A stretch of DNA of 64,000 nucleotides from Rhyzopertha dominica (lineage: Eukaryota; Arthropoda; Insecta; Coleoptera; Bostrichidae): contig QCXZ01000075.1 of the NCBI GenBank assembly GCA_025024175.1, positions 6,262,001 through 6,326,000 on the forward strand. Direction: 5' to 3'. The translations under genes and the position numbers were made by a program. This document shows positions 12,401 through 63,599 of this stretch, in pieces (positions within the stretch are counted from its first letter, which is position 1; each line of letters opens with the position of its first letter). Below the pieces are notes generated by a model that was not told the DNA's origin, searched no databases, and saw only the letters and a program-made list of their open reading frames with translations.

Positions 12401-15400
12401 CTGCTTATGAGATTCACAATACAAACTTGACAACATATATCTTCGAAACTAACAAGAATTTTTAACTCATTCTTTTTTTAAATGAAGGTTTTAGTTTTCT
12501 GAAAGAGCTTAATTTTCAATTTTTGCAAAATTTTTTACTATCAATTTTTTAACAAATTAAAAAGAAAAAAATGGTGATATTAAAAAAAGGAAGGAATCCC
12601 CTTAAACTTTAATAAGTAATTCGCCTGTATGTTGTACCTCTAAAAATCACTGCTCATTATTTTTGTCGTTTACACAGTGATTATAGAAAAAATCAGTGCA
12701 AATTCTATTGTTTGTTTTCAGGGATTCCTGTAGCCGAAAAGTTCAGCTTCTGCGTACACACCATCCTAAGTGACATAGCAGCAAGATGCGAAGCTGCCAG
12801 AGCAGAAATTATCAGCACCCAAGTCGAGTGCCTGATCGACCTAACGTCGATAATAAAGAACGCCCAAGAGTCTCAAAGCTCGAGCCAGGTCAAGTTGTAT
12901 CTTTGCAAAACGACCATTCCGATCTTGATTGGCCTGGCTAGAGCTTTGGGTAGATTCGCTACCACCGATCCTCCTTTGATTTGTCGACTGTTTCCGAAGC
13001 CTGAGCCACCTATGACTCAAAATAACATTACAGTGGAGAAGAACAATTATAAACGTAGCTTCAGTAATTTCAGGTCGATTATTCCAAGGAGTCTTTCGGG
13101 AAATCTCACTGCTACGGTGGATATTTTAGCAATTACACAAGTGAGTTGATTTTTTGCAATGATGTCAATAGAAAATGTTATTAATGTCAACTGAACGGAG
13201 GCAAATGCGACATTTTTAAACTATTGGTAGAAAATAACACTTGGTTTGTTTCGGCCTTCTAGTTCTTTGTCAAAGAGTTTGTAGACAAAACTGATGCTTA
13301 TCGTAAAGGGTGACAATTTATACGAGTCATGTTTTTTAAGTAAGTACCGTTTTGCGATTCCCCCGCCGCAGCGCTACGGTCGGCGTTCCGCACATGCGCG
13401 CTGGTTACCTACATCTCTTGTCTACCCACTGACGCCATTACAGTTTGATTCTTCATTGTATACGTTGTTTACTGAGTGTTTAAGATGCCTCCGACAATTG
13501 TGAGTCCCGCCGATTGTGAAGTACGGGCTGTTATACGATTTCTTAGTGCTAAAGGCGTAAAACCGATCGATATTCATCGTGAGATCTGTGAAGTTTGCGG
13601 ACAAAACATTATGAGTGATGGAATGGTAAGGAAATGGGTTCCGAAAATGTTGACGGATTTGCACAAAACCCAACGTTTAGGCAGTGCATTGACTTTCCTT
13701 GAGCGGTACCACAATGAAGGTGAAGATTTTTTAGACCAAATTGTTACTGGTGACGAAACATGGGTGGCCTACGTCACACCAGAATCGAAACAACAATCCA
13801 TGGNATGGCGACATTCATCATCACCCAAAAAAGTGAAGTTTAAGCAAACAATTTCTGCCCGGAAAATCATGTGCACAGTTTTTTGGGACAGAAAAGGAGT
13901 ATTGCTAGTGGAGTTTCTGCCTCGTAATGAGACAATCAATGCAGCGTCTTATTGTAAGACATTGAGCAATCTGCGTCGTGCAATCCAGAACAAAAGACGT
14001 GGCAAGTTGAGTAAGGGTATCGTTTTGCTGCATGGCAATGCCCGTCCACATGTGGCTAATGGGACCAAAGATCTCATCAAATCTTTTAAATGGGAAACTA
14101 GATCATCCTCCATACAGCCCTGATCTGGCGCCCAGCGACTACCATTTGTTCCTGCACTTGAAGAAACACCTGGGTGGTCAGCGTCTTCAAGACGATAACG
14201 AAGTCGAAACATTTGTGATACAGTGGTTAACAAGTCAGGCGGCAGAATTTTATGAGGAGGGTATTCAAAAACTGGTGCCACGTTATGACAAAAGCCTCAA
14301 TATTCACGGAAATTATGTAGAAAAGAAGATGAAGGTACAGGCTTTCATGTAAGATAAAATTATTGCGATATCTTATGCACGTCTTTTTTTAATTCCAAAA
14401 CGGTACTTACTTAAAAAACATGCCTCTTACTTGTGGTTAGGGATATATTGCATTTAAAAAAAATTAAATATAAAAACCCAGGGCACTACGGGGCCTTTCA
14501 GAAACTGGAAATTTTTCAATTTAGACTATAACTCAAAAACTGTCGTGCTAATCTATCTCAAAAAAGTTGAACAGGGTCGCGAAAATCCTCTTCCCTCCAG
14601 CTTTTATAATAGCCGAGATACTTTTGGGAAAACTGAAAAAGACCGAATTAAATGAATCGACAGTCATTTAAATATATTACAACCCTTTGATTTACAACAG
14701 AGTCATCTCTCTGCTTATTGCCAAAATACTTAATACCTTGCCTTTTCTAGGGTTATGATACAACGGATGTAGCTCACAATACAGAGTCCCTCAAACGAAG
14801 TGCTGTGAGCAATCATACTCGTGAAAATTATGATCCAACAACGTACTTCTTCTCTAAAATCGGTTCAAGCTTCAACCAGTTTCCCCACATGAAGTTTGGT
14901 GAAGATACAGACAAAAAAGTTCTGTTTCCTCAGGCACACTTACAGACAATCTTGGCACTGGCCAAGAAACTGTTGACCAAGGAAATGTTGACTTATTTAG
15001 ATGAAGAAGCACTAGAAGTATACGCTACCGGGAAGATACAAATTTTTCCATACAAGACGTTTTCGGAAACTATCAATTTGGTTATGGTGACACTCTTGAG
15101 GGAGTTGTTGCAACCGCAGAGGGAGCTGCCAGCTCCTTTTACCAAAGATGTACAGGAATTTGTTAAAGGTAAAGGTTTTTTTAACCTGTTTGTTGCTTTT
15201 TTTTAATTCACTTTTTGCAGGACTATTCTTGAATGGTCAGACTGAATTACAAAGCAGAAATCATGATGCTAGTGAGAGAGAGGACAGAGAGAGCAACTAT
15301 GCTCTTGTTAACAAGTTCAAGGTTAATGTGATGGCTAACGCTGCATGTGTGGATTTACTTGTTTGGGCCATAGGGGATGAAACTGGTAAGTAAATTCCCC

Positions 15401-18400
15401 AAAAAAATTAATTTTAAAAAATTGAACATATTACATTAGCGAATGTTAATTGCGCAGTCGAAATTTGTTTGATTGTCTATTTTTTTTTAATTAATGAACA
15501 TATTGTTATGGTGTACACTAGTTCAGTTTAAGTAGGACCGAAGCTATCATGAATTGATCAAGTTTAAAATTCACTTCAGTTCAATAAACGCGAATTATCT
15601 TTAAATCTAAAAACTTCTTGTCTTATTAAGTATAAAACAGTCTAATAGTGCTAATAACTGTATTACTTTTTGACAGCTATAAATTTAAATTATCACAGTA
15701 GCACTTTTTGAACCTTTATCATTTCATTCGTGTGTTTGTTAGTTAACAAATACAATAATTCTGTAATGTACAGAATATTCTACGACAAGCCACATTTAAA
15801 GAATACTGGGAATCAATTAAAGCAACTTTCTGAAAATTTGTTTCATTACAACAATGTTTATTTGCTCAATCGCTTTAAAATGCTCGAAAACATCTAAAAA
15901 CAAAATTTGAGCAAAAAAATTTATTTTCTTAAAATTTGCATTACATATAAATCTCGATTTCCAGCGGTTTCTTTTTGTATATTAAACAGAAAACAGTTAT
16001 TTTGATATCAACCCTGTTTTTAGAGGATGGTTATCCAAAAGAAATATTTTCAGGCATGCATTTGCTAATTTACTTTTATTTGCTACATTTTTTATTCATA
16101 TTTTGATTATCCTGTTACAGTGGATGTCGAATTTAATTTGTCAACTTTGGGTCATGCCCTCACGATTATACTAGGTGAACAGCATGCTTTTGAGCTACCC
16201 TTGTTTTTATATCCTTTAGGAGCGTCTTTAAACATTTCTTGGTTTGTGAAATTTTAAAGGCGTTCCTATAGTTGTGCTGTATTTTCATACATATCGCTAC
16301 GTCCTAAAATTCAGAGATTATTGACACCTTCATCTTGTAGTATATTAACACTGCATAATTTGTAAACAGTTCCAATGGATGCAAATATTTTTTGACAAAC
16401 AACTTTGCCTAAAATAAAAATGAATTGAAGTTGGTTTGCAAATTTGGCAGTTTTGGTTTTATTTCAAACGTGTGCTGCAAAGTAGGATAGAACTTAATTA
16501 CACTAATGATTGTAATGTGATTTTGGTTTTCGGATTTCTTGTTAAAACAATACCTGAATAATTTTCTTTATAAGTGTCATATTCCAGGTGCCGATGGTCT
16601 GTGTGGAAGGCTTACAGAAAAGATTAACTCTAACCACAACCACAAACTTATTTTGGCACATATGCCATTGTTGATGGTTTGTCTGGAAGGTTTGGGAAAG
16701 CTAGCACAGAAATTCCCAAATATTGCTTCCACTTCAATATATTGTTTAAAAGATTTTCTCATCACGCCCTCTCCCATATTGTTAAAGTTACATCGACAAG
16801 CTAGCGAAAAGAACAACAAGGAGAACTTGAAAATAACAGGTATGTGTCTTAAAACTTGGACATTAAACAGTATTTTTCTTGTATATTAGCTGAAAAAATT
16901 TAAATTACTCTATTTTTTAAGAACATTTAAAACATTAAGATTTTTAAGTTAGATTCTTAGTTTTGATCGCGATAGTAGATAGAGAGGTATATGCACGGCC
17001 GTATGGTAACTGTATGCAACTGCGGCTCAGATTCGTAGTCAGTGTGGGAGAGAGAGGTCTAGTAAGAGATGCAAGATAGTAGTAAAAGCGCTCGCCAGTG
17101 ACATGCATAACCATACATTCGGTGTGGTATTTGTGTGAAGTTTTTTGAAATAACTAAAATGTGAAAGTATTGTGTGGTGCCGAACTGTAACAGTAATTCT
17201 TTCGATAGAGCTTTATATGCAAAAAAAATTTAAATCGTCGTCCACATCTAGGGATCATCTTTATCGAACAAATGTTTCTGATACAGCTGGTCCTTCATCT
17301 AGACTTACTATTTTAAAATCCAGAAAACGGCTAAGTCATCCAAATCAGATCATTTCACAGTTAACAAAGAATAGTATTTTAACCAAACATATTCACAGTG
17401 TTGTTTTTGACAATGTAGTGGATGAATTCTTTTCAAATGCATATTCTATTTCATTTCCTTGTAAAGAACACGAAGCAGAAATACTTTCAAAATTTTGTTT
17501 ATTGTTATATTATAATGAGAATTAAATAGTACTATGAGCACAATGACAGAGATACTGATAAATCAAGTGCAAGGAAGAAGAGGGAATCTAACTTACTGTT
17601 TTTTTTTAATTTTTAGATCTTGTATATGTATTTTTAATAAACGTTGACTGCAGAAGTTCCACTTTTTTTTCCTAACACTCTTATTTGATATACTTCTGAA
17701 GTTTAGTGTGAAATGAGTATCATCCTCATAATATAAGAAATATATAGAATAGTCATATTTCTGTGCTTAATTTCACTTCCACATCCAACGGATGGGAAGT
17801 ATTGTATCGGGACAGAAATTTTCAAAAATTTTAATTTGCTCAATCGCTTTAAAAGACTCGAAACGTCCAAAAACAAAATATTTCCAAAAAATGAATTTTG
17901 GACCCAGTCCACACATTTTTTAAAATTTTGCTATTATATAGAAAATTAAATTTCTGATCGAAAAGTACTGTTGCAATTGTTTTTAGTTAATAATTTTGTA
18001 GTTATTTAGAAAAAAACGATTTTACAAAATTTATGGATTTTTGCTAATATCATGAGAACAGTTTGTCGTAGAAAAAATGTCTGGAAATATTAAAATGCTC
18101 AAAACCTCATTATTGATGGTATAATATAAGAAATAAAAGCGTAAATTTCATTTTGACAACTTGATCTGGAAGTATAGATTCAATTTGCAGCGGATTTTCA
18201 TTATCTGACGCAAATCTGTTCTAAAATTGTTGCACAAGTAACAACAGAATCTTATCATTTCCACACTTTTTGAAAAATAAATGAACCATCGCTATTCGCT
18301 TAGGTAATGTTGGGAATCAAATTGATATTATCAACACAGCATGCGCTGTAAAGTATCCTTATGCAAAGCGGAGCGATTCCCACTATGCTCTATCTCTCTC

Positions 18401-21400: not shown

Positions 21401-24400
21401 AGAAGGCTTCCACCCATAAGGAACCCTAAACCAAGGATGCACAAACTTTTCCGTGATTTCTGGCTGTACTGCGTCATCATGGGTTTTACCGCAGCAGATT
21501 CAGGTAACTATCAATTTCATTTTGACACTGCTGTTTGATGAAATTACCCGAAAGAGTGTACTGCACTGTTCCCTATATGTGTTTTTTCTAAACAGCACAC
21601 TGTTCCCCTTTCCAATGTAAGTATGTGTGAATGATCATGGGGAATGTCATTGTATATGAGAACAGCATGTTTTTGTAGCCTTTTCTGCAGTTTACTGATT
21701 CTCTCCTGAATTCTTGTTCTCATATTTTCATATAAATCGGTATAGTTCATCGTAATTTCATATTGGGAATGTATCTATGCTGTCTTGTTTGAGTCGTAGG
21801 CAGTTTGTATTTGTAGCATTCTTTTTTTTATACATTATCTTCAATTTCTGAGCTATTAGTGTAGTCTTTGTGAGAATTTTTCTCATGAGAAGAAAGTAGG
21901 CCTTTCCTTTAATGATAACAATGAGATATATAAGATTTTGAACAATTATGTAAATCATTATAATTGTTACAGTTAGTTCATATTTGCATCACTTTTTTCA
22001 TCTAAAAAACCAGCTGCATAATTAGATCTTCAGTAAGGATAATCTTATTATCTGCCATCTTTTGCAATGCAGATAGGTAAAAATAAAACTGGTTTCTTCC
22101 ATTTTTGTTTGACTAAACCAAAATAAGTTCTATGTTCCTTATCTCATCCGTATGTTATGTTCTCACTAATAAGACTTCTTGACCCGCTGCAACACATATC
22201 TAGATCATGTTAGGAAATATGGAGGGCTTACTTTGTGTCTTTTTTTGTAGAATTTTGAGCTTATATTTGCTCCATTGTTGACATGCTAATTAATTAATTA
22301 TGTACCTTGATTGTAGTTTGTAGATTATGGTATAGAATGGATGGCATTCCTTAATGTTTCTGTGAAAATGTTGCTTAAGTAGATATAATTTGTAGTTGCC
22401 ATCAGATTTCTAGTGCATTTTGTTATGAAAATATAGAAGGGTTTTACTGTAACATTTTTCCTAGGTTAAAGTTAGAATTTCCAAGTTGAAATTTCCATAG
22501 TGAGTTCGATTTTGAAAAGTAAAATCTTTGAAATTGTTCTCACCCTCTCTCCATCTGGTAAATTCTGTTGTTAAACGGGAAAGACAAAAAAACTTATTAT
22601 TAAATTATCTATCATGGATTGCATCCTCTGCAGTTTTGTCTAAGAGACAGTTTTTAACTTAATAATTACTTTCTCTTGCAGTTGATATGTTTTACTCAAA
22701 ATCCAAGATCGTGTCAGTATTGCTGGCAACTCAAAATTATAAATAGCAACTGGGGTCAATTGAAAGCTACTTTCATGCATGAAATGTACTGTATATAATT
22801 GAAACAATTCGTAGCTGCAACCTGCACTGGACTACAGCATAACAGCTTGGAAGAATAATAATATTTTAATAATAACCCTTGTAAAACTCAAGGCAGAAGT
22901 ATAGTTTTTCGTACTTTAACATGGAAATTTCGACTTTAAGTTGCTATAGGTTCCCTTCTATGGTTTCGTATATTGTAGTTGATAGTCTTTCTTAGCATTG
23001 GTACATTTAAATACTCCAATATTAAACTCACACAACTTTATTAAATTATCACCATAACTGATTGAAAAGGAGATGTTAATATTCTTTAAATTTTGAAACT
23101 TTTATAGCTGCTAAAAATTTTAACTCAAGGTGTTTCTTTTCTATTACAAAAAATGGGAAAATATTTTTATTATTAACTATTAATAAATAAAATAATTTGG
23201 TGCCAAGCTTATACACAGCAAATACAGTACACGTCATAGTCTTTGTATAACGACACAAGTAAAATATGGCATAATGCAATGTTCATACTAATTTTGATGT
23301 ATAATTTTAGATCCCAAAACTCTGCTCATTTTAAATGCATTCAGGCACATAAATTTTTGTTTGCTAGGGATAAAAAATGGAAGTGTATTTTTGGATAAAC
23401 ACACAGGTAATTTTATGTCAGCACCTGGGTTTAATAGACAAGTGAAGAGCACTTTTATTGTACTGTTCAAGTAGATATATGTAATCACTTGTATTTATAA
23501 TTTTAACAATACAGTACAGGTGTCCCATTTTCGCTGTAATTGTAGGGTATCTCGGTAACTATTAATCCTAGAAGCTTATTCAACAGGCATACTCAAAATT
23601 TTTTAAGGGGTCACATTTTTGAGGTGTAACACAAACTTGCATTTTTTAATGGAAACCGTAGTTGGCTTTGTTATGGTTAAAACTACCTATTTTTATGATT
23701 AAGAAAATGTACACATTTTTCGCTTTATTTTTATAAATTCTGGTATTATTAAAAAAAAATTTTTTTTTAGTAATTCAGTCAGATTTTATTTTATTTTTAC
23801 ATCCAGGAGGCTATGGAACAAGAAAACAATATAATTTGTAAAAATGCATGTCTATGCTGTGCTGTCTACACCTCAACCAACTGCAATATAATTTGTATTA
23901 TAAAGTGAAAATTTTAATTCATTAAAAATAATATATGCATATTTGGATACATATGTATATGACTCCTAAAAGCACTCATGCAGTTCTTTCATCAGTAACC
24001 TAGGACTAATGAAAATCATTGTTTATTTGCATTGTTTAGCATCACAATATTTATTATTATTAAAATCTCATTAAACTATTATAAAAATTGGAATAATACC
24101 AAAATTTGAAATCAGAAAAATCGGTCTTTTCAATCTTAGTAAAAACCATTTAAAAAATGCAAGTTTGTGTTATATCTCTAAAATGTAACCCCCTAAAGAA
24201 ATTCTGCATAGGTCACTGGATTCAAAATAAAAATATCTACAAAAAATGTCTCCACAGTTTTTTTGTATCTCCATACCCAATCGAGATACTGAGAACTGGA
24301 GAAACATTACAAAAAAATTAGATAGTAATGACGAAACCGCAACCCTCTAGCATTAATAGTTACCGAGATACCCTACAATTATGACGAAAATGATACAGTA

Positions 24401-27400: not shown

Positions 27401-30400
27401 TTTCTTATGGCTTATTTTTAATTGAAGAATTTTGAACATCTTTATTATTATTTTATTTTAATCGGGGCTTTGAACTGCAAGTTCATATGTATTTTTTTTA
27501 TAAATGGCAGTCTTTTTTTCTATTTTATTAATAATGGTGTGACAAAATCCCAATATAATTTTTGTTTCAGGAATACACAAGTCAGATTCATGACGTGGAC
27601 ATTTGGCATCACGCCGGTTTGTCGTTGGCCATGGAATCTATAATGCAGTTCAGTCCGTTCAATGAACAGAGCGCTTCACTTAGTCTTAACACTTTAGAAA
27701 AACGGCCTAAGTGTGTTAAAAATGATCTGCCCAAAGTCATTTCTGTCTTGAACCTAAGAGCAAAGTATAGAGGAGCGGTAAGTTAAATTTTTGTCGATTA
27801 TTGTGTATTATTCTATTAGGTCAGTGCGACTTGATTTTTGTTGTGAATATTAAAGTTTAATATTAATTTCTCATGCTCTCCTAAAGAAAAGTCTAATGAA
27901 CATATAATTTATTTTATTATTTACCTGGAAAATTTTTGAATTGACATTAAACTTTATTAACTGATTTATTGTAACTCAAAATCACCCACTTTCATCCCAG
28001 AAATCTTGAGTTTAACATCAGTATTTATGGGTTTTTGTAAAATTGTGGGTTACTGCAGCAAACTGAACATGCTTAATCATTCATGGTGAATACCAACAAT
28101 CGTCCTATTTCCTGAATTAATTTTAAGCATGCCCAGGAGATATCAGACCATTATTAATTCTAGAGATGATAATACAACGTACTAGATACTGAATGACAAC
28201 ACTAAGAATTGGAAACATTATTATTATTTTTTTTAATTCATAATTGTGATTGAAAAATTCGTTTTTTGAATAAACTTAATCTACACTTTTATAAACTTTT
28301 CCATATTTCATATTTGCCTTTACCAGATACAAGCATTTGTAATAAGCCCAAATTTCGTGAACGCCCTGAAAAGCTTTCAGTTTCTTAGACAGTTTGAGCA
28401 GTGTATTTATATAAAGTAAATTAACTGTTATTAAAAGTAATAATCTGTAAAAATTCAGAATGGTTTCATGTCATGTGAAATAAGTATTATGAATTGAAAA
28501 ATAAATTCATCAGTCAATACTTCAATTGTCAAAACTCAGAATTAGTTAAAATTACGTTGGTGTGTCAGCAGGATCTACGTGGGTTGTTCAGTAAGTCCTT
28601 AGAAAAAGATATAAAATAGTATACTACAGTCATTAAATGGAATACAGTACCGCAACTTCAGTCATATTTGGAGTAAAAGTTTTGGTGGAAACATTCAAGT
28701 TTCCCATTGTTTGTTTTTCTCTATATTGATCAATAATGGGTTTTACCATTCCAATTCCAATCTAAGTAAAATTAACATTGCTAGATCTGAACGTTCTCGC
28801 CAAAACTTTTACTCCAAATATGGCGGACGTTGCGGTACTGTATTCCCACTATACAACAAAAATGACACCATTTGATGGATACAACTGACACTTTGTCAGC
28901 TGTCAAGTGAGTAATGATGTTTAAAAAACAAGTTATCTTTGACCCCATGAGGGCCACTTACAGGAAGACCCTTGTATCAAGTTTTGCTTGAAAAACTTTT
29001 CTGTTGAATGTTATCTCTTTGTATTGCAATTATTCACAGAATAACAGCCGTAATTTACACTTAAAATTAAACTAGATCTTAGTGGGATATTTAAATGTTA
29101 TTTCTTAGGCTACGAATAAATAATAGTCGTTTTAGGTTGAAGGACTGCTCTCTCTTCGTTGTCCATGTGACGAACCTTGTCTCACTGAGCAAATCCTCGC
29201 TGGCTTGACTGAAGCGTGCAAAACACGATCGAATGATATGTACAGGGAAAATCTTTGGAAAGCAACGGCTCTGGTTATTATTAAGCCTCAACTTGTGAAC
29301 AGGATGTTGCTACACAGAATCGCATGGTCTCCAGTAAGTTCAAGAAAATGATATTTGTTTTAGTTATAGACAACAATTATTAGTTATTTAGAACTGAGTA
29401 AGTGTATTCTTTTAGAAACTCTTCTTTCTGTTATGAAGATATTATATATATTCTGTTTTCAAATTGTTGGCAAATTTAATGTTTTTTAATTTGTCTCTAC
29501 ATGCCATTATGATTGCGTTTTTTACAGAGTTCACATAGTTTAAGTGATATATTTTTTAACTTGCTTTAATTTTTCAAGGGATAAAGTGTGGTAAATGAAT
29601 CTGTAACAGTCAAAGGAATGTGGACAAAAAAATCGATATTTCCAAGTTTAACTACTTAGAAGCAATAGTGGTGGACTGGTAGACATGAATTAATTTTAAC
29701 TTTATATTCAATTTTTCACAATTGCAAATAACATTTAAACTAGATTATTACTTAAAATGTCTGTCTATGCTGTGCTGTCTGCACTGCAACCAACCGCAGA
29801 TAGATCTATTTCACTATTATTATAGCTCATCAGTGCAGTTTAGGTCTAGTTCAGACACGATGGCATAGAACTGATTTTGCCTATATACCAAAGGCTTGGT
29901 ATGATGTAAGTAAGAAATTAGATGGCAATGCCATCTGTAAGCATTACTCTGGCATGATGACAAAGCCACCTAGCTGCCATAATGGGATCTTTTATTTTAA
30001 TTTAAAAACTATTTTTTACTACTGAATATTATAATAGCTAAACATTTTTCCAAAGATACTATCTTTTACCAACCACACTATGCATTCAACAAGTTCCTAT
30101 ACCATTTGTTTACTTTTAGTGATATGTGCCTTTTTCCAGCACACTGCAGGCATCAAAATTTCCAGAAAACTGTAAATATGGCCAATACAGTACAAATAAT
30201 AGAAAGTGATACAACCTGTTTTTTTACATTTTTGTTAAAGGGTATAGCCGGATGTATATGGGAAATCTGCCCCCGCAGCATAATTTCAAACAAAGTAGAT
30301 TGAAGACTGCTCTGAGTAATGTTAGTCTTCGTCACTGACTTCATTACAAAATTAAACTTTTGATTAATAACCAGAAGACTCAATATGTCATCATGTTTTA

Positions 30401-33400: not shown

Positions 33401-36400
33401 ATGCAACAACATGAAAACCTGTTGTGGATATTCATATTTTGTAATATTCTACACTTTTACCAGTCTACTAAAATCAAAAAAGAAGTAAAGTAAAAATCAT
33501 TATTCAACGATAATACTCAATGTAGGTATGAATTATTCAATTATTCCTATTTCTTTTTCACCCAAGGTAGTGTATTACATGTATTTATACTGCTGGCTAC
33601 AAATTATAAAAAATATATATTTAATTGATTATACTATTTGTTTGGATTACTTAACCTTTCTTACATTAGAAAATTTTAAATTTAAATCACATCTTATTGC
33701 AGGGTTCTTACTTGTGGATTATCACTCCTCCAAGGTGACATATTACCTAAAAGCCTGGCCAAGAACGTGCTCCGAGAGCGAATTTATTGTAGCTGCTTAG
33801 ATTACTTCTGCAAACCTATTACCTGTCCCACTCAGGAAACCCGTGCTTTGCGGGATGACATAAGTGTACTGATTCGGTTCTGGCAGACCATGCACTCTGA
33901 CAAAAAGTACCTGAAGGCCAGCGATGTAGGAGGTATAATATTTTGCTTTGTTAAACTGTTGTTTTTAATGATACATGTCATTTATATGGGAATTATTTTG
34001 ATAGCATTTCATACTCTTGGTAATTTATTGCTCTTTATAAGCACAAACAATATATTTTCCCAAAAAACAAAAGCATTAACTTTTTGCTAATAATGAAAAC
34101 CAACTTTTTTGAAAAACAAGAAAAAATATAGATTAAAAATCATATCTTGTACAGACTTAAATTTGGGTTCCTCTACTCCCATGGTGGCCATGCAGCAGAC
34201 AGCAGAACTTGCCAAACCTGGTGATTTTTCAAGACCAGCAACAGGTTGGATCAACACGGTACCTTTGTCGAACAGCAGTGCCACCCTGAGCAAGAGATCT
34301 GCAAAATCAAAAAGGATACCTGTCGCTGACAATTTCGTTCGTTGTTACATCAAGAAAAGGAACCTCATTCTTGAATTGTTGGTGAGTTATACTTATTCAC
34401 ATGTGGGACATTTCACAAATGATTTGAACATCCCAAGAAACTTTAGTTTTTAAAATTGTATTTGTGTTTGTGTATGTTTTGTGTTATTTATTAATGAATA
34501 GTAGTTTTTTGGTAGTTATTAAATAATAATAGTGAAACAATTGTTTATGATCCTACTTCCAAACTTTCATTCAAGGTAAAGCTAAATACCAGTATTTTCT
34601 TTTTTTTAAGTAAATTTTTTTATTCATTATTAATAACGACGTTCTGGTTGATGGAGTTAAACAAATATTTTAAACGCAAAACCAAAATTTCTCTGGAAAA
34701 TAATCTAAAGAATACAAATAAATTTCCGATATTATACTATCATACATTTATAATTTAGCCAACTGAAACGTATTAAAAAAAGAAATGATCACTAAGTTAT
34801 TAAACAAACACAAATAATTTAAATTTGCAATCTCTCGTGCATCTTAGTCCTGAAAAACAAGCCATATTGCATAGAAAATTTACACACCATCTTTCAATAG
34901 AACATAAATTTCAAAATTTCTTCTCTAAATTTAATATTAATCTTGCTTTTGGTAACACCTACACTTTAAGAAACTTATTAGGCAACACCCTGGATAAAGA
35001 ATACACATTAAACAAATCCGAAATTTATTAAATAAAATGCTGTAACTGCCCAAAAAACCGCTGCAAATTGAATCAATACTTCCACATCCAATTGTCAAAA
35101 TGACATTTACATTTTTAAGTAAGAATTTAGGATGGCAATGCCATCTATCAGCATTACACTGGCGTGATGACAAAGTCACCTAACTGCTACACTAGACCTA
35201 AACTGCACTGATGAGCTGTAATGACAGCGAAATAGATCTATCTGCAGTTGGTTGAGGTGCAGACAGCACAGCATAGACATGCAATTCAATTTACGTTTTT
35301 ATTTCTTATACTATACGATTAGTAATCAGATTTTGAGCATTTTGTCTCTCTACATGATTAATATTCACAGTTATACTACTAATCACATACTGAAACGAAA
35401 AAAAAAACAAAAAAATAAAAATTTGCAAAAAGGGTAGTTGCCCCCCAGTTTCGCCCCCTTCCCGATACCCTCCTTACCCCACAAACAATAGGTCCCTTTG
35501 GGTAGTTGAGATTTATACGTTTGCCAAATTTCAAGTTCATATATTGTCTTTCAAAAGTTATCATGTCCACAAACAATACCACAGACACACGGACACACAG
35601 ACGAGAAATTTTTTTGCTCAAATTTTGTTTTTTTTTTAGTTTTCGACCATTTTAAAGCGAATGAGCAAATAAAAATTTTTGAAAATTTTTTTTGCGACAC
35701 AATACTTCCCATCCGTTCGATGTGGAAGTAATATTAAAATCGTTTTTTTTTTCCAAATAACTCGAAAATTATTAACTTAACAAACAAATTACAAGAGTGC
35801 TTTCTGATTACAAATTTGATTTTCTATATAATACCAAAATTTAAAAAAAATCGTACGAGCAAGGACCAAAATAGGTTTTTTGGAAATATTTCAAAAATGT
35901 CAAAATTGTGAATAAATTTTCTAAGACACTTTTTGTGAGAAATTTTATTTCCTATCTGATGGTGTTTTCATTTTTTGGATATATTAAATATATTCGGAGA
36001 TATTTAGGAAAAACCGTTTTCTTTTAGTGACCCTTTTTTGCTAATATCTTCTAAAAAGTTTGCTGCACCAAAAATTTATAAGAACGAATAATACTCGCAA
36101 TTATCTACTAATCACATACTAAAATGAAAAAATAAAAATTTGCAAAAAGGGCACTTCGCCCCCTTCCCGATAACCTACTTACCCCACAAACAATAGGTTG
36201 CTTTGGGTAGTTGAGATTTATACATTCGCCAAATTTCAAGTTCATATATTAAGTCTTTCGAAAGTTATTGTGTCCACAAACAAAACCACAGACACACAGA
36301 CAAGAAATTTTTTTTTTCTCAAATTTTGTTTTTTTTTTTGTGTTTTCAACCATGCAATATTTCCCATCCGTTAGATGTGGAAGTAAAAATTGAGATGACA

Positions 36401-39400: not shown

Positions 39401-42400
39401 CTACTAAAACATCAACTATTCGAATAGAACAAACAGTAATACACAGACCAATATTTAATAACAAAAATTTAATTTAATTTATTTTTGTCTTTCACTCGCT
39501 GCTTAATGTAACAAATAGATGAACCATTGTTAAGAGATTAGGACTTCCCCATTTAAGATTTTTGAGTTTTCAAAATTGAAAGATGGTCAAATTTGTAAGA
39601 AATTATTAAAAACTACTGGTCATTTTTCCGGTTGTTGGATCTCTTTTGTTTTCTTTTTGAGCGTGTTATTTAAATATCTAGTTTTCCCATTATAATAAAC
39701 ACATTGATATCCATCCAGTATAACTGTTGGTAAGTTTTTTAACGGATGTTGTTGATTTTATTTTGAAAGCAATAATTAGACTGATATGTTGCAAAATTCT
39801 ACTAGTAACTTTTTTAATTAATTACTAAGTTCTTCAGTACAAGAAATCCTATAAAATGTAATAAATGGGAGACGGAGAACCATCCTATCGGGCACCACAC
39901 AGCAGAGCTCTCAAATATTAATACACTTTAGTCAGACTATAATATGTGTTTTATCTATTTGTCAGGTAACTTTTCTTAGCTTATTCCTTTTAATTTTATT
40001 AAACAGTGTGTCCCGAAAATAACCGAACTTTATATTTAAATCATACAACACACAGCGCCATCTATTGAAAATTTGTAGCATTAAAAAGATATATTCATCC
40101 TCTTTCAAACGCACTTAAGTCCATGTAAATCGGATGACAGATGTCAAATTTACAGCCTAAGGCCAGGTCGTCCAGAAGCTAGTAATCGTGCTGAATTGGT
40201 GAAAAAAGTCCGTGAAATCATTGGTATCGATGCAAATTTTACTGTGAGAATGTTGGCTGAGGAATTAAATATGAGTAAAAACACTATTTGGGGAATTTTA
40301 ACTGAAGATTTGAGTAAAAGAAAGGTCTGTGAGCGTTTTGTTCCACATAAATTAAATAAAGACATGGCATATTAAATATGACCCTGAAACTAAGCGTCAA
40401 TCTGCTGAACAGAAGTCCAAAGGCGATCCAAAACCAAAAATATTGTGTTTTTAAAAGTCTCGAATCAAGACGATGTTGATTACTTGATTGATTACTAATT
40501 GATTTTACCAAAAAGAGGCTTAAGTTTTCTGGTTATTTATTATTTTTTCCACAATTTACTTATAAATAATGGTAACTTTAGAATTGTTATTCAAAGTGGT
40601 AGGCACTGAACTAAAAATGTAGCATAAAGGCAATTTTTTCAGGAGAAGACCAAAAATACAATACTATCTTGTACGATTGTGTAGTGTTCATGATTTATTG
40701 CATACCTTAATATGTAATTTTTATTCAGGTTCAACCTGGCTGTTACCTTCCAAGCAACCCAGAGGCTATGGTATTAGACATCGACTATAAAAGTGGCACT
40801 CCCATGCAAAGTGCTGCCAAAGCACCTTATTTGGCCAGATTTAAAGTTGTTCGATGTGGTATTACAGAATTGGAAAATATTGCCATGGCAATATCCAACA
40901 ATCAACAGGTATACATATTAAAATGGAATAAAGTTATTTTTATAATACAAACTCTACACTGTGCAATTTTGCTTTATCCATGTACAGGGTGTCCCATTTT
41001 CGTTGTAATTGTATGGCATCTTGGTAACTATTAATGTTAGAGCATTGCGGTTTCAACATTACTATATTACTTTTTTGTTGTGAGTTGAGCTGTACCATCG
41101 CCATTATTATATCGTCTTTTGTTTTAAAGCCATAGCCAATATTTGAAAAATGTAACATTTCTACAGTTCTCAATATCTTAATTGGCTATGTAGATACAAA
41201 AAAAACTGTAGAGACATTTTCTATAGATATTTTTATTATAAATCCAGTGGCATACTCAGAATTTTTTTAGGGGGTCACATTTTAGAGATATAACAAACTT
41301 TGCATTTTTTTTTTAAATGGAAACCATAGTTGGCTTTGCTGTGGTTGAAAAGATCTAGTTTTTCTGATTAACAAAATGTATACATTGTTAGCTTTATTTT
41401 TGTTAATGTTAGTATTATTCTAATTTTTGTAATAATTGGATGTGATTTTACATTTTTTGTCAAAGTGGATGTAAATAATTAATGATAAACAATGCATAGG
41501 TACTTATCTCTAAATAAACAATCATTTTCATTAGTTACATGGCCTTCTAGATTACCAATAAAAAACTGCACTAGCGCTTTTAGAAGTGTTATGTATGTAT
41601 TCAAATATATTATTTTAATGGATTAAAATTTTTACTTAATAATATAAATTATAATGTGTGTTTTCTTATTCCATAGCCTAATGGATGTACACGTAAAATA
41701 TGATAAAATTATTTAAAAAAATTTGAATAATTCCAAAATTAGTAAAAATAAACCTAACAATGTATACATTTTTTAATCAGAAAAAATAGGCCTTTTTAAC
41801 CATAACAAAGCCAACTATGGTTTCCATTTAAAAAAATGCAAGTTTGTGTTATATCTCTAAAATGTGACCCCCTAAAAAAATTCTGAGTTCGCCACTGAAT
41901 TTAGAATAAAAATATCTATAAAAAAAGTCTTTACAGTTTTTTTTGTATCTACATAGCCAATCGAGATATTGAGAACTGAAGAAATGTTACATTTTTCAAA
42001 AGTTCAAAAGACGATACAATAATGGCTATGGTATATCTCAACTCACAACAAAAAAGTAATGTAGTAATGTCGAAACCGCAATGCTCTAGTATTAATAGTT
42101 ACCGAGATACCCTACAATTACAACGAAAATGGGACACCCTGTACTTTAACATTATTTATGGTGTTTGTTTACTAAAAGCCAGCTTAATCCACAGGTGAAT
42201 ATGCAAAATTTGGGTCCTGAATTATGGCAGGCAGCCATCTTCAAAGTTGGAGATGACGTTAGGCAAGATATGTTGGCTTTACAAGTTATTGGAATATTCA
42301 AACACATATTCCAAACTGTTGGCTTAGATTTATTCTTGTTTCCGTATCGTGTAGTGGCAACAGCACCAGGGGTAAGCAAAAATTTCTGAAATGTTTTTGA

Positions 42401-47505: not shown

Positions 47506-49650
47506 TCACAGATTAAGTTTTGGCAGTATATCACCACACTTGGCGGCAATTTTTATATTGACTAAGTCATCTGCTCTAGTCGGACCTATATTTACTAAAG
47601 CAATGCTTTTACGTTCTTCCACTGCCTGAAGAATTATCCTGTAGGATGAAAATACAGTTAAACTCGAACCTAATACCAAAAGTGAATCACTTTCTGATAC
47701 AAATCGTCGAACCATCTCGACTCTTGCTCTAGGAACGTTGTCACCGAAAAATATGATGTCTGGTTTCAAGATACCACCGCATTCTTTGCAGAAAGGGGGT
47801 TTGAATCCCTTAATCTTGTCCTGAAACCAAGTTATAGATTTATTTGCAGGTTAGATCATTTATATCGATATTACTTACTTAAAAGTAGATTTTGTACTGA
47901 TAACACAAAAAATGTTTTTATACACCTACAAATTAATATCTGTTTTGCTGTGAAAATGATAGTACAAATCCTGAACATCTAAAGCCTAAAGAGTACAAAC
48001 TTTTAGCATTCTGACAACAACAGAATTATGATTTAGGAGTGTCCGATTTGTTGGGGGTGGACCACCCAAAAAGTTTAAATTCACTTTTACAGAATTAAAT
48101 TTATTTAAATGAGAAGGGATGATTAATATACCAACTTTTCCCAAAAAAAAACTATGGCATCAACTATCTTGCTATACATTAATTTTTGTAAAAAAATGTA
48201 GTTAATGACCCATAGAGCATTTTGCCATTTTGTGAAAATAAAAATGACAATGGCAATACTTACAAAACAGCAGGCAATTTTTAAACTAAGATATAGAATT
48301 GTAGGGTTTTCGTTGTTCCACAAAGTATAAAGAACACTATCACTTCGAAACGGAAAATTTTTACTTAAGAAATTTATTTTGGGCCGTTATAGCTTTTAAA
48401 CAATTGCACGCAAAACTTGAATCTTTCAGATAGAATGCTATATTTATTTTTCCACTACTGGAGGTGCAATTAAATGTTATTTTATTTTATATAACATTGT
48501 TAATAGTTCAAATTAACTGTTATTTTTAAAAGAATAACGAACTGCTATAATTTCCAAGAAATCATCATGTTGGCATCTCTTGTTGACTTTCACTTGTTTT
48601 ATGTTTAACCAGGCTCAACACTGGATGCAAATTCTAAAAGTAAAGACCTGCATATCTGCACAAAAAATATAAAATCGTCAGTGAAGAACCCAGCTTATTT
48701 CAGAGACACCTTGAGTGACAGAAAATACAGAGAAAAATGTCAGTATTAAAATAAAATACGTAGTTTCATTAAGAATCTAAAAAAAAAGAGCAGTGGGAGC
48801 TCTGCCATGATTTCATTAAAATAAGGGAAATTATTTTTTTTTATAACAAAACAGTCAATATAATATAAATAAATATAGGTATTTGCATGTGAAAGGTTCA
48901 AAGTTACAAGCCTAGAGAAATTAATTTCTTACTAAATATATTATAAATAGTTTATTAGATAATAGATATTTTTTCGACTTAATGATCATTTTCAAATAGA
49001 CATGTAGGTACAACTCACCTCCGATATTTCTACATCTCCATCAGGCCTAATCATATCAGAAGCTTCCCCCATTTGTGAATTTGTACTTTTCAAATGATCC
49101 TGTATCTCATACCTGCTATAATTAGCTTGACACTGCAGGCAAATCACCCTGAAAGCCGTCCCATGCAACTCAATCATGTTCCTACTGCCAGCTTTACGAT
49201 GCAAACTATCTACGTTTTGTGTGACAACTGCGTTTGCCTTTTTATGTACTATTTCCAAATCTCTCACAAACTTATGCGTGTCGTTTGGCTTGCAGCTAGA
49301 AAATTTTTCCCAGCCGATGTAGTTTCGTGCCCAGTATCGCTGTCTTACAGCAGCAGATTTAAGAAACTCTTGATACTGAATCGGTTTGTGGTTGGAACGG
49401 GCATAGAGACCTACTTCTTCAGAACGATAGTCTGGAATACCTGTGGTTGCACAGTTAGGGTAATTAGGTGACATTCATGGAGTGTGCTACCTGATTCTGT
49501 TGAAATTCCAGCTCCAGTAAGCACCACAAGCTTATCGGAACTTGACAGGAAGTTTTCTAGTAATTTCACATCTGAGTCAATAACTGGTGCGTGCTTTGGG
49601 ACAAAATTTAACAGTTCTGTACTAAATTTGCGAAATAACTTAATGCCCAT
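47506..49650 (-). CDS. SIRT4: Mitochondrial sirtuin SIRT4, three exons
   Basis: Class II sirtuin, an NAD-dependent lysine deacylase and ADP-ribosyltransferase of the mitochondrial matrix that restrains glutamate dehydrogenase and other enzymes in mammals. Exons (minus): 49650-49491, 49440-49019, 47820-47506, joining in phase to 298 aa (human 314). The start is the first ATG after an in-frame TAA. The N-terminus MGIKLFRKFSTELL is basic and amphipathic, as for a mitochondrial presequence. NAD-binding motifs are GAGISTESGIPDYRS (spanning the exon 1-2 junction) and TQNVDSLH; the catalytic histidine is in ELHG. Zinc cysteines appear as CLQC and CKECGG. GSSLTVF and LVNIGPT complete the Rossmann fold. 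Intron 1 is only 50 bp; intron 2 (47821-49018) holds nothing recognisable. The gene converges on PI4KA. Confidence 0.94.
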
Positions 49651-54100: not shown

Positions 54101-57100
54101 TCATTTCAGATAGATGTAGAAAACTTTTGGACTCCTGTTCAGTAAACACATACTGCGGCGAGCTTTACTGTAATTCCTGTTACAAGTGTCTCTGTGATCC
54201 CTTTAAATTCGAAAAGTGCTGCAGACCCAGGAAGTGTTGCAGACCGAAAAGTGCTTGTTGCCCCCCCCCACCTGACTGCTGCCCCATGGAAACCTGTTGT
54301 CCCGTAAGTATTCTTACTTATTTTTATTTTTGATAGTGTTTATAAAATACCTGCTCAAAAAAATTGTCAAAAAACAAGTAGGTATGTACTGGATTTTTAA
54401 AATCCAATATATGTTTTTTTTTGTTATCTCACGTAGAAATAAATTTCCATCAGAATATCAGAATGTAAGTTTTCTTATATTAATTTTATGGAGACTGACT
54501 GGTTAAACGTGAAATTTGGATAATAATAAAACACTTGTTTAATCCTACTTCCAAACTTTTATTTTTGGCAAAGCCAAATGCCAGCATTTCAACCGCCAAG
54601 CGGCCTTCTTCGGTGGCTTAACAAGTATAACTGAATATAACTGAATATGTGAAATTTGGAGATTAGTGAATTGGATGAAATGGTCCAGTATTGTCGCCCG
54701 CCAGGGGTCCCAATTTAACAATTTTGGGTAAAGTCAATTTTATTTTAAACACATATTGTACAACAATTTAACATTTACTTCATTACATTTTTGAATAGGT
54801 TTGTTAAAAGATCGCCGAATTTTATACAACAAATCTTCATTCTGAAGAGAATCCACAGAATTTTTAATCACAAAAATTGATAGGGTTTAAGTCGGGGCTT
54901 CGCGCAGGCCAAGCTATTTGATTCCCATGGCCAATCCAACCAAAAATTGCATATTTAAGTATGTCTGAATCAAGTTCTTCTTTTGAAAAACCAATATCGG
55001 TACATGTTTTCTTCCTCTTCTTCAACTTGCGCTTGCATACTTGCGCCCATACTAACTCAATTGGGTTGAGTTGGCAGTGGTAAGGTAGGCGATTGTAGTA
55101 AAGTCAGCAAAAATCATTTTGCAACGAGTAGTTTTTTAGTGATACCTTATCGTACTTCAGTTCTTCTTATCGCTAGAGGGTGCTGTAGCAGATTTTTGCT
55201 TTAAATGCCTAGAGAGGTGGACGATAGCCATTCGCATTGCTTTTCCTACAAAGTTATCGACAGCTTTTATGAATAGAAATATTACACAAGGTATAAATTA
55301 GGTGTTAGGTATATGCTGCTGTCAACAAAATCTTCTACACAGCAGTGGCAGGACCACAAAATTATTATTGGAACTTTATTAAAAAAGTAAAATTTTGAAA
55401 GTTTGGAAGTTGGTGCATAAATCGCAAATATATGTTTTTGTTGCAAAACTTGTCAATGTCACTTAAACTTTTTTGTGTAGAATAAAATGCTGTATTATTT
55501 AGATTAGCCATTGTCTGTCATTAAAAAATAAAGTATAAATGTGTATTTAGGTATTTTTAATTAATTAATTTAATTAATGCTTCAAACGTCTTCTAAAAAT
55601 CATAGGGCAGATTTCAAAATGTTATTAGTATATTCGTCTCAAATCAATTGTTCAAGACATATACTATTTTCTGCAGTAAAAAAATTTTACCACTGTATAA
55701 TACAGTCCAGTGCAGTAATAAATGAATATGTAGGTGAAGTACTACCTTGCCCATTTTGAAAGCAGCTGCTGTTGACAATTTAACTCAATTCTACATATTT
55801 CAACAGATGCATCTTAATAGTAATTTCGTTCACGTATGCTTTATTTTTATCTTTAACTAATTACTACATTTTATATTTTATCAGGCTTTTCAGTTTTCTC
55901 AGTTAGAAATTAAAAAAAAAGATGTAAAGGTGTATCACAAAATATTTTTAAATTGATAATAGGAGGTATCTCGGGGAGATTAGAAGAGTATAAATGGTGA
56001 TTAGTTGGTCTGTGTCTGCTTGATTTTATGGGTGCTCCATCTAATAATTTAATAATATCTGTTAACTTTGTAGTATTTTATTTTTAAATTTATGGCAGTT
56101 TTCGGAAAAAGTGAACATCTGCATCATGCAAGGTATGAACTTGCAGTTTCTATAATTACTTTTAGAGTGAATTTGCCTAATTTTCCTCACTATCAGGATC
56201 TTCCAAATCCATTTTAGAAATTGTAATACCATCTTAACAACTTTTGATAAATTTAATGTTGAAATACGTGAAAAGAAGTAACCAGTCTTTGTAACTGAAC
56301 GAGTTTATTGAATGAAATTAAAATAAACTCATTCAGTTACAAAGACTGGTTACTGCTTTCCACATATTATATACAAACTGAACTGGAATAATGGACACTA
56401 ACATATGTAATGAAAGATTGATAAGCATATGTAGATTAAAGTACTGAAAATCAATTATTTTAGTTGAATGTGCTTTTATTGTGAAACATTTTGAATCATG
56501 TAAATAGGATGAAAACAGGCTGATTGATTGCTTTTCGCTTCACCCTTTTTGTCAGAAGATCATTTTCAAACAGCATCAGAACTATTTGTAGAATTTTGTC
56601 CACATCACTTATTAGTACAGGGGTGAAAAGTATCAAATATTTGTTACGGAGATCTTGTATTATGTAAAAAATCAAATCAAAAAGTGGAATAATATTACTT
56701 TTACTGAAATACAACGAACACTTAGTACGTGTGGACAATATAAGTAATACACAGTGAATGCCTGATATATATTTATCATACACCTAAAACTGCAGTAAAC
56801 TATATAATTAGCTAAATGTTCATGTAAAAAGTGAAATGTTAAAAAAGTAACTACTTACCTACCATAGATTTTTGAACAATTTATATAAGTATAACCTCGT
56901 AGATTCTATTTTATCAGGGCATCGGTGTCAATAAATTACAATTCCTTTTAACTTTTCGCCAAGTTTTCGGAGGTGTTTACCTGCTTTGTCAGGGCCTAAA
57001 ATCTTTTATTTAATTTATATACAATCTACATGTAACACTTACTTCTAGTTGTGGATTAATTAAGGGCGCTGAACAGGAACACAGAAACCAACCACAAAGT

Positions 57101-60525: not shown

Positions 60526-61854
60526 AGGCTAACTCGATGCCAAATTTTCTTGATCACACGATATATACATATAAAGATATAAATTTAGATGGCACTCCAG
60601 TTTTGTTTGATATTAGGAATATTACCTTAACTATAAATGATATTCAAGATGTCATCTGTCACTTAAGCGTCGCACATAGTCCTGGTCTAGACAGACTTCA
60701 TCCATTGATAATTATCAATTGTCGTGACTCTATACATATGAGTAGCTAATACAATATTTTAGGAGGGGCTTAAGTCCCTCAAGTAGAAGTAATAATAATT
60801 ATTTACGATAGGTAATAAAACATTAAATATTGAAGTTAACTTTCTCAGTGGAGGCAGCTTTGGCGATGGCAGTTTTACCGTATTTCATACAAAGTTAAAG
60901 TCAATACATGTAAATAAATTATTATATTTAAACCTTGAGAAAAATTTTAGGGGAGCTAAGTTTTGGGGGGGGGGGGGTTAATTGAACCTATCTCTTAAAC
61001 TCAGTGTTTTTCCTCATGCATTGAATTATCGTATTTTTCACCTCTTCTTAAAGGTGGTGACTCCACCGATGTTGCTAATTATCAATAAATATAAAATCTT
61101 TGCCAAAATGTTCGAATATTTGGTTAACCTCAAAGTTCTTCCCTATCTCAAAAAATTTATTATTCCAAATCAGCATGGCTTTCTCGAAGGGCGTTCTACT
61201 ATTACTAACCTAACTGTTTATTCCAAATTTATAATTTCTCATTTAAATAATGGAGTTATAGTAGAATCAATTTATACAGATCTCATCCGCTCTTTTGATT
61301 TGGTTAATTTTGACTTGCGTTGTAGAAAGCTTTATGTGTATGGAATTGTTGGCTCACTTTTAGCTTGGTGATCGTAAGCAAGATTAAAGGGTTCACTTCA
61401 TACCCTATTGATACGAAACTATTTAGAGCTATATAAAAACCCAAGAAACGTTAAATGGTCTGAGATATAACTCAAAAAATGCTTCTGTATAAGGTTTGGA
61501 AATTCGAGACTTCCAAATAATTTCTGTTTGCTTGCTGGAGTAGCATTAGAGAATGTCGAACATATATGCGTGATTTGGGAGTCATTTTTGAGTCTGGAAT
61601 GACCTTTAAAACACATATTGAGCATTTGGATATTAATATTCACAGCAAGATTTACTGCATAAAAAGGTTTTCTTTTAAATTTAAAATGACTAATACTTTT
61701 CGAGTGCTCTATTTCTCTTTTATTTACTCAAAATTAATCTATGCCTTTACAATATGGAGACCTCATGAATTAGGTTTGATTAAAAATTAAAATCATTGGA
61801 CCATTTATATTTAAGATTTGCAGCTTATAAATCTGACTATCCATTACATTATAC

Positions 61855-63599
61855 GAATCAGCCGGTCACGTTAGAGAGGGATAGAGCATAGTGGGAATCG
61901 ATCCTCTTTGCATAAGGCTACTTTACAGCGCACGCTGTGTTGATAATATCAGTTTGATTCCCAAAATTACCTAAACGAATAGCGATGGTTCATTTATCTT
62001 CCAAAAAGTGTGGAAATGATAACATTCTGTTGTTACTTGTGCAACAATTTTAGAACACATTTGTGTCAGACAATGAAAATCCGCTGCAAATTGAATCAAT
62101 ACTTCCAGATCAAGTCGTCAAAATGAAATTTATGCTTTTATTTCTTATATTATACCATCAATAATGAGGTTTTTAGCATTTTTTATCTCTAGACATTTTT
62201 TTCTACGACAAACGGTTCTCGTGATATTAGCAAAAATCCATAAATTTGTAAAATCGGTTTTTTTCTAAATAACTCGAAAATTATTAACTAAACAAAACAA
62301 TTTGCAAGAGTACTTTTCGATTAGAAATTTAATTTTTTATATAATAGCAAAATTTAAAAAAATTGTGTGGACAAGGCCCAAAATTCATTTTTTTGGAAAT
62401 ATTTCAAAAATGTCAAAATTGTGGAAACAATTTTTAAACACTTTTTGTGAGAAATTTTATTTCCTATCGGATGATATTTTCATATGTGAATATTAAGTAT
62501 TTTCTGAGATATTTGGGAAAAAACGTTTTTTTTTAAAATGACCGTTTTTTCTTCTAAACAGTTTGCTGCACTGAAAATTTATAGGGACTAATAATGCTCG
62601 CAATTATACTACTAATTACATACTAAAAGGCAAACAATAAATGTTTGCAAAAAGGGTAGTTACCTCACAATTTTAGGGAAGGGGGCCCTATACCCTACTC
62701 ACCCCAAAAACAACATATTGCTTTGGGTAGTTGAGATTTATATGTATGCCAAATTTCAAGTTCATATGTTGTCTTTCGAAAGTTATCGTGTCCACACAGA
62801 CAGACATACAAACACGAAATTTTTACTCAAATTTTGTTTNTGGATGTTTTGAAGCATTTTAAAGCCATTGAGCAAATAAAAAATTTTGAAAATTTCTGTC
62901 GCAATACAATACTTCCCATCTGTTGGATGTGGAAGTAAAATTAAGTACAGAAATACGACTACTCTATATATTTCTTATATTATGAGGATGATACTTATAT
63001 ATCAAATAGAGTGTTAGGAAAAAAGTGGCCCTTCTGCAGCCAATGTTTATTGAAAATACAATACAAGGAGATCTAAAAATTAAAAAAAACTGTAAGTTAG
63101 ATTCCTTCTTCTTTCTTGCACTTGATTTATCAGTATCTCTGTCATTGTGCTTATAGTACTATTTAATATTATAATATAACAATAAACAAAATTTTGAAAG
63201 TATTTCTGCTTCGTGTTATTTACAAGGAAACGAAATAGAATATGTGTTTGAAAACAATTCATCCACTACATTGTCAAAAACAACTGTAAATATGTTTGGT
63301 TAAAATATAGATATAGATGATCCTTACATGTGGAGCATTTCGATGATTTAATTTTTTTTTGCATATAAAGCTCTATCAAAGAATTACTGTTACAGTTCAG
63401 CACCACACAATACTTTCACATTTTTGTTATTTCAAAAAACCACACCGAATGTATGGTTATGCATGCCACTGGCAAGCGCTTTTACTACTATATTGCATCT
63501 CTTACTAGACCTCTCTCTTCCACACTGACTACGAATTTGGGCCGCAGATGCATACAGTTACCATATGGTCGTGCGTATACCCCTCTATCTACTACCGTG
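61855..63599 (-). mobile_element. P-like THAP element, second copy
   Basis: Same family as 16968-18471, in reverse orientation. The right end is ...CTACTACCGTG. The THAP start reads KYCVVLNCNSNS on the minus strand near 63415-63380. It is longer than the first copy because it keeps a segment of the ACTTCCACATCC interior that the first lacks. The left tip is missing about 50 bp, and flanking octamers (CATTATAC, GCTAATAC) match at only five positions, so no duplication can be claimed. It lies within LINE coding sequence. Confidence 0.75.

Follow-up and report, generated by a model that had tools for sequence, protein, structure and literature searches.

A 45-bp insertion that starts at a predicted hammerhead cut, and the two-ended insertions of its retrozyme-like family in Rhyzopertha dominica

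Does a hammerhead ribozyme take part in the retroposition of the repeat family that carries it? The question is raised by a 45-bp fragment, here called D, in the 64,000-nucleotide stretch of Rhyzopertha dominica DNA that we analysed (the window). An initial annotation had described D as an insertion beginning at the ribozyme cleavage site and had read it as the likely reverse transcription and insertion of the self-cleaved 3' product. A sharp peak of 5' ends at TGCAG among the genomic copies was set beforehand as the test of this model, and 5' ends spread evenly along the family without an excess at the cut as the outcome that would speak against it.

The insertion and the hammerhead copies of the window

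Fragment D occupies positions 23841-23885 on the minus strand and runs from u1 to u45 of its family, where u1 denotes the first base 3' of the predicted hammerhead cut. Read on the minus strand, the letters are TACAAATTATAT, then the insert from TGCAGTTGG to CATGCATTTT, then TACAAATTATAT(TG). The flanks form a perfect direct repeat of 12 bp (23829-23840 and 23886-23897), or of 14 bp (23827-23840 and 23884-23897) when the TG common to insert and flank is included; in a chance control, 9 of 20,000 random 45-bp intervals of the window were abutted by repeats of at least 12 bp. Because a paralogous stretch (41560-41700, plus strand) aligns across the site without the insert, D is an insertion. Immediately 5' of TGCAG, D has a T where the family has a C, which rules out a start further upstream; the common TG leaves the start uncertain by 0-2 nt. 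The letters and a strict hammerhead scan (see below) thus bear out the anatomy that had been proposed: a 45-bp insertion beginning at the predicted cut, with 12-bp target duplications (perfect over 12-14 bp and matched by an empty paralogous site), that keeps only family sequence downstream of the cut and has a boundary in doubt by up to 2 nt. A 25-nt piece of the family tail occurs in the window at 703, 23860 and 35244 (at most three mismatches; chance mean 0.00). D itself sits inside one copy (23642-24397) of a repeat with long inverted repeats, whose other copy (40982-42144) provides the empty site.

The strict scan for type-I hammerheads found three motifs in the window; 30 Markov-chain shuffles contained no such motif. 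They belong to three further copies of the family, A, B and C, with predicted cuts between 729 and 728 (minus strand), 29799 and 29798 (minus) and 35242 and 35243 (plus), respectively. All three have a stem I of 7 bp, CUGAUGA, a stem II of 5 bp with a 4-nt loop, GAAA, and a stem III of 3 bp with a 4-nt loop, and the type-I features (CUGANGA and GAA core, three helices, H17 before the cut) are present in the window motifs. The helices are kept among the copies: 98.7% of the paired cells are standard pairs, as against 25-41% in slid versions. Covariation among A, B and C gives no support, with one pair changed on both sides and 158 of 500 shuffles scoring equally high. The best Rfam match is HH9, at 28.5, 25.2 and 23.5 bits, all below the gathering score of 52, and in the isolated stretch the hammerhead fold is not the minimum-energy fold (e.g., -15.6 versus -23.1 kcal/mol). 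Self-cleavage of these hammerheads is a prediction, as is an extended stem I that would reach about 21 nt past the cut.

Copies A (684-921, minus; hammerhead 704-785) and C (35117-35286, plus; hammerhead 35186-35267) have the two-ended form discussed below. In A, an inverted arm with its outer end near u243 is joined to a forward arm that runs to u45; in C, the inverted arm (35117-35187) is joined to a forward arm that runs to the tail, and paralogous empty sites are present at 62076-62191 (plus) and 18092-18198 (minus). Copy B (29754-29977, minus; hammerhead 29773-29855) has the single-ended form; it is 224 nt long, ends at the tail and is more divergent. A search of the window copies for target duplications of at least 9 bp with at most one mismatch gave none for A, B or C and a partial one for D, within the limits of the search windows. 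The shared start of B and C (GCAGYTAGGTGRC) was considered as a cleavage end from its likeness to the tail, and rejected: the longer unit places it mid-unit, and 11 of 127,974 positions match the tail 13-mer equally well, family tails included. Similarly, a candidate MIR1033 at 839-917 (a long hairpin; Rfam 40.5 bits, gathering score 70) is really the inverted arm of copy A around GATGGCAATGCCATC. No relatives were found in scans of viral contigs, genome contigs and plasmids, in protein searches or in the PDB.

The window also contains a piece of a Mariner-type transposase (13476-14120, plus; Pfam Transposase_1), a Sir2-family exon (47509-47850, minus; Pfam) and a near-perfect hairpin at 56276-56355 with a weak mir-95 score (26 bits, E 1). 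Exons between about 12 and 45 kb on the plus strand seem to resemble those of a phosphatidylinositol 4-kinase gene, in which case B, C and D would be intronic.

The family and the position of its 5' ends

How common are such insertions, and where do they begin? We searched the genome assembly (479,159,283 bases, 138 contigs). With a 131-nt query we obtained 816 candidates and scored 40 of them; a 31-nt tail pattern matched exactly at 2982 places, against 0 for the control. The four natural tandem units that were measured are 351, 348, 343 and 345 nt long, and the tandem copies listed for the tail pattern are spaced 350-352 nt apart. The tail ends at u45 in CATTTT. Beyond it, 21 of 100 sampled copies continue into unit body and the other 79 into other DNA; no repeat tail follows CATTTT in the sampled copies. 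The family is retrozyme-like. In several copies (L070, L041, L051, L161, L166 and L174-L176) the hammerhead is partly or wholly absent through internal jumps, some of them between short repeats such as CTGCA.

The sample consists of the first 100 of the 2982 tail matches, chosen blind to the 5' end, from one contig and with exact tails. Thirty were taken as 3-kb loci and 70 as 261-base stretches, each extended leftwards against the natural units; some rows are one insertion (L064/L065, L078/L079). Seventy-two 5' ends were resolved and 28 copies reached the edge. The ends are scattered along the unit, with one at u1 (L118), one at u3 and one at u4. The region between 173 nt upstream and u14 has 188 three-nucleotide intervals; 49 of them contain at least two ends and 21 at least three, so the two ends in u1-u3 are ordinary. 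Clusters occur elsewhere, at u312/313 (five rows, four insertions), u237 (four rows), u219 (three rows) and u246 (three rows). The sample lacks the sharp peak at TGCAG: only one of its 72 ends is at u1, and u1-u3 together contain two. With this count at u1, the position of D alone is weak evidence. Most arms in the sampled copies cross the cleavage site; a cut linear RNA is therefore not the usual template, and the 5'-end test on the sample argues against it as well. Arms also stop recurrently away from the cut, for example at u94-103 (L073, L075, L080), u172 (L071, L072, L076) and u312/313 (L078, L085, L097, L121).

The immediate surroundings of the cut were covered by a start pattern for u1-u14, which has 276 matches in the genome. 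Among the first 100, 34 antisense matches, 7 shifted hammerheads, 11 unassigned matches and 7 ends at u11-u12 were left out, and the remaining 41 were classed by hand. Where script and letters conflicted, the letters were used (L162 and L165 are short inverted arms, L178 is a hammerhead); L179 and L181 are one sequence. From u1 to u10, the hand-classed ends number 8, 4, 6, 1, 1, 2, 0, 1, 3 and 0, that is, 18 in u1-u3 versus 8 in u4-u10 (Poisson 2.6e-8, a comparison with the 3' side only). The density in u1-u3 is about five times that in u4-u10 and, by a rough estimate, about twice the upstream density. The excess covers three positions, and in many cases the end is a junction with an inverted arm. 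Relative to the 3' side the excess is thus local and broad, with no sharp peak, and no excess over the upstream ends is visible in the 72-end sample. A pattern for copies of one subfamily that start at u1 has 26 matches genome-wide. In 7 of them, D included, the upstream DNA is unrelated; 10 adjoin an inverted arm of the family, and the other 9 are mutated or deleted hammerheads. An additional genome pattern (1883 matches, the first 100 of them) was discarded, being confounded by the antisense of stem I.

What, then, becomes of the self-cleaved 3' product as template? A retroposed fragment of a hammerhead family does start at the predicted cut, and the local excess (18 versus 8) agrees with the proposal, but the scattered ends and the missing peak do not. 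For D in particular, the RNA would have been cut by its hammerhead, the 3' product, with its UGCAG start, would have been the template, and the cDNA would have run off at its 5' end. This could hold for D without being the usual route. The start of D coincides exactly with the predicted cut, other copies that start in u1-u3 have target duplications (L031, 13 bp; L045, 9 bp; L157, 10 bp, at u1; L167, 9 bp, at u3), the hand-classed ends are denser in u1-u3, and, given the predicted reach of stem I about 21 nt past the cut, a stall at the hairpin foot would be expected to begin the copy later than u1. Set against these are the ordinary number of ends in u1-u3 in the 72-end sample and the spread of the hand-classed excess over three positions, with its many inverted-arm junctions. 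Moreover, in the cited portion of a study of a Penelope-like element, insertion in vitro was the same with hammerhead mutants, and none of the RNA-seq reads had its end at that element's cut (PMC11167929). We consider a cut template rather unlikely as the origin of D.

A cut template fits D exactly, and an ordinary stop joined at TG fits too. The latter may have been a 5' truncation that reached the cut by chance, through the TG common to flank and element, or a joining favoured by the TGCA palindrome. The common TG is present at D, ends fall all over the unit, four copies (L033, L042, L053 and L056) meet an inverted arm at AAAATGCA, and the junction of L046 is at TGCA. Such joining leaves the roughly fivefold density in u1-u3 over u4-u10 (first 100 of 276 matches) to be explained, together with the unrelated upstream DNA in 7 of the 26 u1 matches. 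We give it somewhat less than even odds as the account of the exact start of D.

Insertions with two paired 3' ends

The outer 3' ends of the insertions cluster at u43-54 and at about u235-250. Two outward-facing 3' ends, arranged head to head, are found in 29 of 60 insertions (sets L001-L030 and L057-L086); for the second set, two segmentations disagree on whether 18 or 19 are two-ended. In 25 of the 29, one end lies near u47 and the other near u243, and pairs of two u47 ends number 0. Every copy was selected via tail or hammerhead, so that insertions with two u243 ends are under-sampled and pairs of u47 ends are the one alternative against which the pairing rule is tested. In four copies (L033, L042, L053, L056) the inverted arms are joined at AAAA-TGCA-GTTGG, as though a TGCA-ended cDNA had looped back onto the tail at its TGCA.

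Target duplications go with the two-ended form. In the set that is unbiased with respect to the 5' end (L057-L086), duplications with a score of at least 9 flank 17 of 19 two-ended and 1 of 11 single-ended insertions; the corresponding figures in L001-L030 are 6 of 10 and 3 of 20, and random pairs give 4 of 400. D, a single 45-bp arm with a target duplication, is unusual among single-ended insertions. The duplication is 13 or 14 bp long in 14 of the 17 two-ended insertions of L057-L086. Sixteen perfect duplications, chosen by hand, have an A+T content of 84%; for the window, its profile gives about 69%. Arms longer than one unit exist (357, 360 and 396 nt). The fixed paired 3' ends, one per strand, with a short target duplication, argue that each of the target strands primes reverse transcription, at two set positions within the RNA.

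These insertions bear on the cut template once more. A cut linear monomer would give u243 arms that end at u1; none does in 18 two-ended rows (17 distinct insertions), the nearest ending at u17.

Could twin priming of the LINE type produce the same arrangement? There, a target-primed cDNA from the RNA 3' end and a second, internally primed cDNA give a 5' inversion. Twin priming yields head-to-head inversions with target duplications, and both are present here; a reverse transcriptase-like fragment also lies in the window (60982-61368, plus; Pfam RVT_1, E 0.015, below the cut-off). However, no fixed place is expected for the outer end of the inverted arm, and here 25 of the 29 two-ended insertions have that end at a constant place near u243, and the sampled 3' ends are CATTTT without a repeat tail. 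Twin priming is therefore improbable in our judgement. ARAGORN found no tRNA in the window; a diverged SINE head is beyond the reach of such a scan. A foldback or inverted-repeat DNA transposon would account for inverted arms as such, but here the ends correspond to two separate positions within one unit, the junction varies, some copies are single-ended and arms may exceed one unit, so that we give this origin almost no weight.

A proposed route and its relation to known elements

Priming from two target strands remains the preferred reading. D is probably an extremely short copy of a hammerhead retroelement that is non-autonomous and belongs with the animal (non-LTR) retrozymes, made by two-strand priming on a circular or multimeric RNA. 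The template would be the 343-351-nt unit in circular or multimeric form; long arms could alternatively stem from transcripts of tandem loci. We infer the following order of steps. A helper with reverse transcriptase and endonuclease, most likely Penelope-like, would cut the target strands about 13-14 bp apart. Each target 3' end would then prime a cDNA at its own fixed place inside the RNA, near u47 for one and near u243 for the other, and the two cDNAs would be joined at their stops, often at small homologies, into a head-to-head insertion. Stops occur all along the unit, the cleavage site being one place among many; stops there would perhaps be aided, in a small share, by ribozyme-cut templates or by the TGCA palindrome. 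In D, the u47 cDNA would have stopped after 45 nt, with the u243 arm absent.

No coding unit was seen for the family. A peptide at 34804-35028 (plus) seems to resemble the part of a Penelope-like protein that precedes the endonuclease; it had no match in Pfam, the PDB or a protein database.

It is attractive to speculate further, though with some reserve, that the reverse transcriptase is a Penelope-like dimer which grips a single circular hammerhead RNA at two fixed start points, about 196 nt from each other, and copies it simultaneously from the two target strands. A complete insertion would then be a head-to-head pair of u47 and u243 cDNAs, the retrozyme would be a Penelope-like satellite, and rare short copies such as D would come from circles opened by their own ribozyme. 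The mover of animal retrozymes and the role of the hammerhead in Penelope-like elements are described as open in the cited parts of recent accounts (PMC7761336, PMC11167929). The fixed paired ends are a genomic footprint that can be tested with purified Penelope-like protein and in any genome with such repeats.

How does the family compare with known systems? With animal non-LTR retrozymes, as described in the cited portion of Cervera and de la Pena (2020; PMC7229834), it shares a type-I hammerhead with a short helix III, the unit length (343-351 nt, within their 170-400 nt), tandem copies and target duplications longer than 4 bp. In contrast to those elements, the family is mostly dispersed in our sample, and many of its insertions are two-ended and head to head, with ends fixed near u47 and u243. 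Penelope-like elements have been proposed as helpers of animal retrozymes, with circular RNA as template (PMC7229834, PMC7761336, in the parts cited), and the review states in its cited part that retrozyme repeats carry no motif that indicates the helper (PMC7761336).

We liken the route to that of Penelope-like elements because the anole Penelope-like protein, according to the cited portion of that study, cleaves both strands of the target, extends each of them and initiates reverse transcription internally on the RNA, at two adjacent sites (PMC11167929). Among the literature matches listed for insertion of retrozymes or Penelope-like elements in head-to-head or both-strand fashion, this study was the only close one, and we do not claim that two-ended retrozyme insertions are unreported. 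Rotifer Penelope elements are described, in the part cited, with inverted head-to-head parts, an optional 3' tail and short target duplications (PMC3846280). Head-to-head inverted parts, a tail and short target duplications (PMC11167929, PMC3846280), as well as AT-rich targets and a type-I hammerhead, are common to these elements and the family. The differences, as far as the cited descriptions go, are that Penelope-like elements are protein-coding and have pLTRs, whereas the family is known from repeats in which no coding unit was seen; that their hammerheads are minimal and lack helix III, which in the family has 3 bp and a 4-nt loop; and that the start sites of the anole element are adjacent (PMC11167929) and those of the family about 196 nt apart. 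R2 and its relatives, with HDV-like ribozymes, share the principle that self-cleavage can set the 5' end of an insertion; in the cited account their ribozyme is located 5'-terminally and the 5' junctions agree with its cut (PMC3774820), whereas the 5' ends of the family are scattered.
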